NCBI RefSeq assembly: GCF_016859285.1
Contig: NC_053400.1
Location: 33,535,501 to 33,599,500, forward strand
Length of the DNA stretch: 64,000 nucleotides
From: Xiphias gladius
Taxonomy: Eukaryota; Chordata; Actinopteri; Istiophoriformes; Xiphiidae
Reading direction: 5' to 3'
The notes under the pieces were generated by a model. The model did not search any database. It was not told the DNA's origin and worked only from the letters and a program-made list of their open reading frames with translations. Both the position numbers and the translations under genes were made by a program. Positions 8,422 through 11,273 of this stretch are shown one piece after another; within the stretch, counting starts at the first letter, position 1; each line of letters begins with the position of its first letter.

Positions 8422-11273
8422 CTACAGGGCACCGGTGAGGCACATGAGGACAAGCACGTGTATTGTCAGCAAGTAGGCCAGAAAGAAATATCGAGAGCGG
8501 GCGCGGCTCGTCAGCAGCCTGGAGAAGTAGAGGCTCCTCCCTCGGAGCCACCGTCGACACGCCACCATCCCACCTTTCACCTGCAGGGACAAACGCCGGA
8601 CAATCAGGGAACCAGACCTCACCCGTCATCACCCGTACGATGATACATTACCGTTTCGTCTGAAAGCTACACGAACAGGGGTCCACCTACAGGGGCAGTG
8701 GTGGCATGAATCAGGTCCCAGGCTACACATGGATGAAGAGATGAACGAAATCGTACCTTTCGCGTTATTAGAGGCTGGTTCGGGTTGAGACTAAGAGCTT
8801 CCCACTCCTCCTCCGTTTCCATCTCGATACTGAAATCCCTTTGACTGTCTCTGGACAGACCCGAGCCAACACTGCAACACAACAGCATTTGAAAAGGTTC
8901 TGCTCTGCTGTAGATATGTGTGTGTGTGTGTGTGTGTGTGTGTGTGTGTGTGTGAGAGAGACAGATGAGTGACTGAATTTGGGTCTCACCTCTTTGCTCT
9001 GTCCTCAGCAAGACGCAGAGCGTCCTCAGCTGTCTCTCTCCTGGCTCTCTCATCTGCAAGAATCTGCTCCACCTCAAGCAGCCTGAACACACACACACAC
9101 ACACACACACACACACACACACACACACACAGAGGACATGTTAATACAGTATATCCATGAGCTCAACCGATTCTACACGTAAACGTGTGTGAGAGAATGT
9201 AGAGAACATCCGACAAAACTGCCAAGATAAAACTCCGAGATCGCGTCTCCTCACCTTTCTCGGAGCTGACTGGCTTCAGCAGTTTCAATCGTGGAGTCGT
9301 TGCTCTTCTCCTGTGGAGCTCCTGGTGCGACCTCGGCGTATACTGACCCCTGCTGGTGGGGACACAACATTACAGGTATGTACAGATGCAACTTTTCCGT
9401 TGTAAGATTCTTTTTTTTTTAGCATTTCGGACTTTAGTTCGTAGCGTAACAGTACAGAGAGACAAAAAACAAAGGGAAAGACAGAGGGTGATGAGATGCA
9501 GCTACGAGCTCCTGTCAGAGGCGAACTGGGAACAGGGTTTTTTCTGAATCATTTCAGTTTCTATCAGTCCAAAACCACAACAATGCTTTTTCCACATGCT
9601 AGTGCAGGTGGAATTGTAAAAAAAGCTGCATCAAAAGCCTCTAAAGTGTCAAAATGCGTAAGAAAAGCAACTGCACAGGCAAGTCATATATAATGGATAT
9701 ACAGAATTCAGAAGCAGCTGTGCACAGACACATTCATTCAAATAAAACATCGGAAATCATGTGGCCGCCCTGGTATTTTATGATAATGTCAGAGGAATCT
9801 CATTGCAGTTAATGAGGGCAAAACTAATCAATTAATCTGATGTCTAAAAGCAATGTATGATATGAGATGCTTTAAGGGAAAAAAGGGACCAGAGAAACAC
9901 TGGACACACAAGCAGTGCAGACACGTTTGGGACTGTTTACCTGGGCCTGGCGTTGGGCCTGGCCTTCCAGCCAGTGGCAGCGATTCTGCGTGTCCCTCAG
10001 GGTTTGGGAAACGGCCCTCAGCTGGGCTGCGACAGCACCTCTCTCCTCTATGGCCTGCTGCAGCTGGTGGGGGGGTAGCACACTGTACTTTTACAAACAT
10101 GGTGATGGATTATTTGATTTTTCCATCATCAAAGAGATGCCTCCATTCTTACTTTTCATGTATCTTCTCTAGAAATTGACCGTAATCAGTGGGTGGACAC
10201 GGTAATTAGACTTCAGGCATTATGAATTTGTTTTACTATAGTGTAATCCAACAGCCTGCCTACACTGGACACATCACGCTAGCAGTTTGTAAGCATTTTG
10301 CTTGTGTCCGCACCGGCACATTTTAGCACTCATTCGGATGTGTTCTGTTCTAGGAATGTGGACAGGCTCGGCTGTTTCATACCTTGGTGTTGAGTTGCTG
10401 GAAGTACTGGTCTCGTTGCTGGATCTCATACATGCAGCGCTGCAGGTCTCTGTGAAGCTGAACCCTCTCCGCCTCCAACCGACTCACCACCTCCTCCGTT
10501 CCACTCTGACCCGCCAAAGCAACCGTTTCCTGTTGCAGGGGGGGAAGTATTGTGGTTCATAAAATGATAAACCGACAGCCATTTGGTTTTATCTGACTTT
10601 GGTTCTCATGCTAACATAGATTATCAACTACAAATGTTCTCTTTCTAAACCACTAGGAACTAGCAACAAAAAAATTACCCCCATTTCAAATAGTACAGTA
10701 GAAAATGAGCAATATAAAATACCCACGATACATCTCTGGCAGTCTTCAGACAGAAGCAGATTGTTCATGTGTGTAACCTTACCTTGACTGGAGGTGTGTC
10801 CTTCCTCTCTCTGTCAGACCTACGTAACAGAAATCCTTTAGTATCATAAGCAAAAATCTCACATTTCTCATTGAACAGTGCAGCAGGCGCCACTGCGATT
10901 ACTACAGTTTGGCCAAACATCAAACCTCTAACTTGTGGCCAAGGTATGGGACACTTTTCTCGTTTCTGTTGCACGGAACACCATTTGAGCCAAGACGCCG
11001 CGAGAGAGGCCACACCTCTAAATACTGCTTAGTACTATCTGCATGCATCCAACACCAGACTTCAACCACAAAAGGTCAATGTCCATGATTTTCTGTTACT
11101 CTTTAAGGACGCTACACTTTCAGTCGAAAATACACAAGTTTAATTTATCTTTATTTATCCTCAGTCTGCTTTTACCTCAGCTTTGCTAATTCTTCCTGGG
11201 AACTGCTGACTTCTTCAGGGGGGATTCTGTATGTTTGCATCTTCTGTACGTTTTGTCGTAGCTCGTCCATCTT
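8422..11273 (-). CDS. golgb1: golgb1 C-terminal exons 22-29 with membrane anchor (residues 4740-5027)
   Basis: Exons in transcript order are 11,273-11,176; 10,819-10,783 (37 nt); 10,529-10,383; 10,063-9,941; 9,349-9,255; 9,082-8,990; 8,871-8,757; 8,580-8,422. The phases agree throughout. The coiled coil continues to about [20 protein letters not shown], then an acidic segment follows ([20 protein letters not shown]). The last exon encodes a basic stretch ([20 protein letters not shown]) and a hydrophobic helix of about 20 residues ([17 protein letters not shown]) only three residues (TGA-L) from the stop. This is the tail-anchor arrangement expected of giantin, with the bulk of the protein in the cytoplasm. 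The acceptor of the 9,349 exon has two AGs three bases apart, so one Gln may be variably included. Confidence 0.92.

Follow-up and report, generated by a model that had tools for sequence, protein, structure and literature searches.

A golgb1 exon enclosed by complementary GU and CA repeat tracts in a fish genome: predicted trans-exonic pairing and probable normal inclusion

The window, i.e. the whole stretch of 64,000 nucleotides that was analysed (C1:33535501-33599500 of a fish genome of 690.8 Mb in 1298 contigs), carries on its minus strand a gene that appears to be golgb1, encoding giantin. The assignment was based on its giant coiled-coil reading frame, its C-terminal membrane anchor and an alignment to the tail of human giantin. 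One coding exon spans some 11.6 kb (from 11563 to near 23166, its start being ambiguous) and is followed on its 3' side by eight smaller exons, which form one open frame up to a stop at 8422, and predicted upstream exons extend to at least 41274. A scan for codon usage and splice sites gave 36 exons, evident small false ones included, and its model held one internal stop besides the terminal stop. Zebrafish golgb1 is reported to have 20 exons, in a paper whose main text does not contain the term isoform (PMC5576078). Comparison of the golgb1 protein with Pfam and PDB gave no Pfam match above cut-off and no PDB match, and comparison of its C-terminal part with genome and viral contig collections confirmed no relative. 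Elsewhere in the window, an exon on the minus strand (55943-56227) encodes an EF-hand above the Pfam cut-off and resembles a guanylate cyclase activator. An AC array (62749-62857, 54.5 copies) and a TA-rich array (57137-57199) lie near the right end of the window.

Table 1. Positions of the golgb1 features and of three further exons with GU repeats before and CA repeats behind them
Feature	Position	Strand	Length	Remark
golgb1 exon F	9255..9352	-	98 nt	
Intron F-G	9083..9254	-	172 nt	
Branch-site candidate UAUUAAC, intron F-G	9138..9146	-		branch A at 9141; consensus match only
GU tract	9087..9131	-	45 nt	22.5 repeats, perfect; 3' end of intron F-G, 4 nt before exon G
golgb1 exon G	8990..9082	-	93 nt	31 residues; open frame joined with neighbours; exon 27 of the sequence-only reading
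Intron G-H	8872..8989	-	118 nt	
CA tract	8917..8954	-	38 nt	19 repeats, perfect; intron G-H, 35 nt past exon G donor
golgb1 exon H	8757..8871	-	115 nt	acceptor taken to be at 8871; further AGs in frame upstream
golgb1 last exon	8422..8580	-		C-terminal membrane anchor; weak Pfam CASP_C match below cut-off
L022	G000:C2:1521400-1523200	-	107 nt	PTP-receptor-like; joined with neighbours, Pfam PTP_tm above cut-off
L023	G000:C5	-	108 nt	HRM domain above cut-off, closest to VIPR2
L024	G000:C18	-	94 nt	OTUD5 match over all 31 residues, E 4e-15

Exon G, the third exon counted from the 3' end of golgb1, forms with its neighbouring exons a single open frame with a terminal stop only, and is both entered and left in phase 2. 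The sequence-only reading had proposed that skipping would keep the frame, and this was confirmed in the gene model, where omission of the exon costs 31 residues and creates no stop. Judged by eye, these residues make up a short helix-like segment flanked by two linkers. The exon is bordered by the acceptor ...(GU)n-UCAG/G and the donor AAAGAG/GUGAGA. The donor was strong by a simple weight matrix. The acceptor is without a pyrimidine tract and its branch-site candidate is distant; from the candidate branch A to the acceptor there are 58 nt, free of AG. The place of the polypyrimidine tract is taken by (GU)22 followed by UCAG, just as that reading had it. The peptide of exon G aligned without gaps to the corresponding part of the human giantin tail (50 of 168 positions identical over the whole alignment), and this alignment may be a hint that the exon is old and normally included. 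Further downstream, four AGs are found on the minus strand between the CA tract and the assumed acceptor of exon H (ending at 8908, 8905, 8903 and 8900), and no yUnAy branch-site match follows these AGs at 8900-8908. Use of the AG at 8908 or 8905 would add 36 or 33 nt to exon H, and the addition of 36 nt is in frame and open when checked by eye.

Between the GU and CA tracts lie 132 nt; the two are complementary over a length of 38 nt, and the positions proposed for exon and tracts, with GU directly before the exon and CA 35 nt after it, proved correct. The longest CA run in intron F-G is 7 nt and the longest GU run in intron G-H is 5 nt; thus neither tract has a partner within its own intron. 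By eye, the outer flanks of the tracts were not complementary, and the pair is therefore unlike one inverted duplication. Between 8422 and 43300, one other perfect CA/GU run of at least 10 nt was found on the minus strand, a GU run of 87 nt (41552-41638) about 280 nt upstream of the first confident golgb1 exon (41126-41274). If transcribed, this run is a possible competitor for the CA tract.

We determined the predicted pairing of the tracts in naked RNA. Across exon G, 36.9 of 38 base pairs were expected. The fold of exons F to H (596 nt) gave a z of -5.91 against 100 shuffles; single introns and intron-exon-intron units were compared with 60 shuffles and long pieces with 15. Folded singly, intron F-G (z 0.32) and intron G-H (z -1.00) were ordinary, whereas exon G together with both introns reached a z of -8.2, and the structure is thus trans-exonic. 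Four other golgb1 intron-exon-intron units gave z from -0.29 to 2.58, and the other six single introns from -2.76 (A-B) to 3.07 (H-I). A stem pairing 9022-9040 with 8954-8973 (minus strand, between exon and intron, adjoining the CA tract) showed pair probabilities mostly near 1; it was rejected as a special element, as 29 of 200 shuffles folded equally well (z -1.01).

Distances within the predicted fold were also compared. The branch-site candidate lay 45 steps from the acceptor of exon H as against 58 from that of exon G, and the donor of exon F 74 as against 122 steps. When the CA tract was replaced, the order was reversed, the branch site being 84 steps from exon H and 58 from exon G, and the donor of exon F 101 and 75 steps, respectively. 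The acceptor and the donor of exon G itself were 34 steps apart. With the RNA treated as naked and at equilibrium, the distances to the acceptors of exons H and G would be the best argument for looping-out of the exon.

We checked how often such tract pairs occur. The two tracts of exon G are among eight perfect CA/GT runs of at least 16 nt in the window, and random placement of eight tracts would bring opposite-orientation neighbours to within 132 nt of each other in 5.7% of 64-kb windows. A sample of 200 kb from contig C1 (20 stretches of 10 kb each) held 43 runs of at least 16 nt, 20 of them at least 38 nt long; one pair of opposite-orientation neighbours within 300 nt was present among the 43, and none among the 30 runs of at least 24 nt in the same sample. 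Genome-wide, the pattern TG8-N110-140-CA8 gave at least 10,057 matches per strand as compared to at least 9,219 for the reversed order, with registers counted separately, and its first 12 distinct places fell within 8.7 Mb. Inverted tract pairs are thus common in this genome and show little polarity bias, and the idea that such a pair is unusual in itself was dropped on the strength of the sample and the genome-wide counts. Far fewer pairs frame a coding exon exactly; one narrow pattern found four distinct places.

That pattern was (UG)5-UUCAG, 80-110 nt, GUGAG, 15-45 nt, (CA)6, and its 37 register-counted matches in the genome reduced to the four places, all of which are recognisable coding exons, namely those of golgb1, a receptor phosphatase, a VIPR2-like receptor and OTUD5 (Table 1; the ends of the latter three exons were read from single sequences). 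The peptide of the phosphatase exon alone had no Pfam or PDB match, and the longer piece had no PDB match. GU tracts of 36, 40 and 19 nt stand at the acceptors of the three other exons, and a trans-exonic duplex was predicted at all four places (36.8, 39.8, 34.9 and 18.5 bp). Skipping would shift the frame in two of the four, those of 107 and 94 nt, and would therefore break those genes. The layout is thus compatible with inclusion. The sequence-only reading had proposed a duplex that loops exon G out: its very strong trans-exonic pairing stood as a prediction, and its view that the layout implies skipping did not, since half of these exons shift frame.

Two side observations concern the surroundings of these exons. 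The intron downstream of the phosphatase exon is of the same-intron AC-GU kind, its CA run past the donor measuring 51 nt and its GU run ahead of the next acceptor 20 nt, and the OTUD5 stretch has two additional GU runs downstream, of 56 and 36 nt.

As controls, the pattern with the acceptor AG changed to AC matched two distinct places, one with a GT array in the part examined and the other with an open frame, by eye, over the 65 nt examined. The pattern with GU on both sides matched one place, a repeat array, and the narrow layout with a middle length of 111-141 nt matched none in the genome. Four places against two is weak as a count; the strength of the result is that all four are recognisable exons. 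All four lie on the minus strand, as do six of the seven places when both controls are included, which may be due to chance or to a property of the search; plus-strand matches may thus be undercounted.

The length of the repeats had been proposed to set the splicing ratio. We folded the RNA with 0 to 25 CA repeats or with 2 to 30 GU repeats, at 37° C as well as 25° C, and predicted equilibrium pairing was near complete from about 4 repeats upward at both temperatures. Variation around 19 and 22 repeats would thus have no effect on equilibrium pairing, and splicing dosage by repeat length through pairing appears unlikely under this model; the proposal was abandoned in that form. Repeat length could act through bound proteins: a human study relates it to binding, of HNRNP-L with AC and of TARDBP with GT repeats, and associates a human AC repeat with skipping of an SH3YL1 exon (PMC13174678).

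Exon G is, in our judgement, probably an ordinary, normally included giantin exon with a split repeat pair, skipping being minor at most. Normal inclusion is indicated by the same layout on four coding exons, two of them not divisible by three in length, by the strong donor and the lack of any AG between a good branch-site candidate and the acceptor, and, as a lead only, by the gap-free alignment to the human tail. It is also consistent with the location of the AC repeat close to a donor and of the GU repeat close to an acceptor, the positions these repeats are reported to hold in zebrafish introns spliced without U2AF (PMC9024468), and with the reported binding of TDP-43 to GU repeats near the diffusion limit (PMC12697283). 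Against it we counted the pyrimidine-free acceptor, the distant branch site, the nearly complete predicted duplex and a golgb1 frame that tolerates skipping, as well as the reported repression by TDP-43 near a splice site (PMC13343711) and a layout known from four places only, with few controls (AG to AC and GU/GU).

Under normal inclusion, the GU tract would be transcribed first, 132 nt ahead of the start of the CA tract, giving TDP-43 first access; before the CA tract is made, it would probably be covered by this protein or serve as an acceptor poor in pyrimidines. The CA tract could be bound by hnRNP L, and exon G would mostly be spliced in. Were the duplex formed before the acceptor is committed, joining of exon F to exon H would be favoured, in frame and with 31 residues lost, and would give no more than a minor isoform. 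In-frame skipping of exon G to at least 5% in some tissue is conceivable, and we rather doubt it.

TDP-43 bound to the GU tract might instead repress the acceptor as in CFTR exon 9, with partial in-frame skipping and no role for the CA tract. Exon G has the feature in question, its acceptor adjoining a UG repeat that is followed by almost no U, and skipping of CFTR exon 9 is reported to follow from a long UG and a short U run (PMC12171016). The affinity of TDP-43 for single-stranded GU repeats is described as picomolar and its footprint as 11-12 nt (PMC12697283), and up to three footprints of 12 nt would fit on the 45-nt tract. However, the three other exons of this layout, two of them frame-shifting, also have GU tracts at their acceptors, and the CFTR case additionally requires hnRNP A1 at an exonic silencer (PMC12171016). 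We therefore regard such repression as unlikely. As TDP-43 binds the single strand, it and the duplex are mutually exclusive rivals and could not act side by side as had been suggested.

The duplex itself might loop exon G out and cause substantial in-frame skipping at a ratio set by repeat length. Perfect complementarity of 38 bp in the two flanking introns, a predicted structure that encloses the exon, the z of exon G with both introns and the fold distances, which favour the acceptor of exon H with the CA tract in place and that of exon G once it is replaced, all speak for this possibility, and pairing of flanking introns has been described as a way to loop an exon out (PMC11802352). It is nevertheless improbable, because pairing saturated at about 4 repeats leaves no room for equilibrium dosage, because the layout recurs on exons that would shift frame if skipped, and because the GU tract would be free for TDP-43 before CA is transcribed.

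A further possibility, which we consider quite improbable, is that split (GU)n-exon-(CA)m pairs mark a small selected set of fish exons, in which a trans-exon RNA helix would join acceptor and donor and such RNA exon definition would take over the role of U2AF and bridging proteins and, where it fails, lead to loop-out skipping. The short distance between the acceptor and donor of exon G in the predicted fold would fit this idea, and the set would consist of the golgb1, PTP receptor, VIPR2-like receptor and OTUD5 exons, their length of 80-110 nt being given by the search pattern.

Promotion of back-splicing by the duplex, yielding a circle of exon G alone, is very hard to credit, as 93 nt is very short for an RNA circle and nothing specific on zebrafish circular RNA with GT repeats was present among the literature matches listed, even though the two splice sites are near each other in the predicted fold and paired flanking introns have been linked to circular RNA (PMC11802352). 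Concealment of the acceptor by a pUG quadruplex folded from the GU tract is the least credible of all and was rejected as the main actor, for although 12 repeats suffice and 22.5 are present, the reported folding half-time of at least 13 min in vitro is slow as compared to splicing (PMC12276007) and TDP-43 would capture the strand first (PMC12697283).

In fish pre-mRNAs, AC and GU repeats within one intron are known to bring its splice sites together by pairing. We found the split GU-exon-CA arrangement described nowhere in the literature searched; Lin et al. 2016, which reportedly deals with the zebrafish (AC)m-(GU)n introns and lay outside that search, may treat it. When the same repeats are split across an exon, their pairing should either oppose inclusion by looping-out or serve as RNA exon definition, and the four exons in one genome, two frame-keeping and two not, offer a direct test between the two. 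Inverted Alu elements are an example of the former: as in that system (PMC11802352), the introns on either side contain complementary stretches and the exon lies in the loop between them, but here they are dinucleotide repeats of 38-45 nt rather than transposons and the layout also occurs on frame-shifting exons. The (UG)m(U)n acceptor of CFTR exon 9 is similar in that a UG repeat replaces a good polypyrimidine tract, whereas the repeat at exon G is longer than the cited (TG)12, is followed by no U run and has a complementary CA tract downstream (PMC12171016). In zebrafish (AC)m-(GU)n introns the AC repeat is reported to lie close to the donor and the GU repeat close to the acceptor, and these introns are reported to form an intron-spanning fold and to be spliced without U2AF (PMC9024468; also PMC9198270, PMC7404189). 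The golgb1 tracts resemble them in being CA and GU repeats complementary to each other, in lying downstream of a donor (CA) and upstream of an acceptor (GU), and in their strong predicted duplex. Introns F-G and G-H could not be assigned to this class, their same-intron partner runs and single folds being as given above; in contrast to repeats within one intron that join its ends, those of golgb1 lie in two introns and enclose an exon. Exon G is thus flanked by the right half of one AC-GU intron and the left half of the next, with the partners absent.
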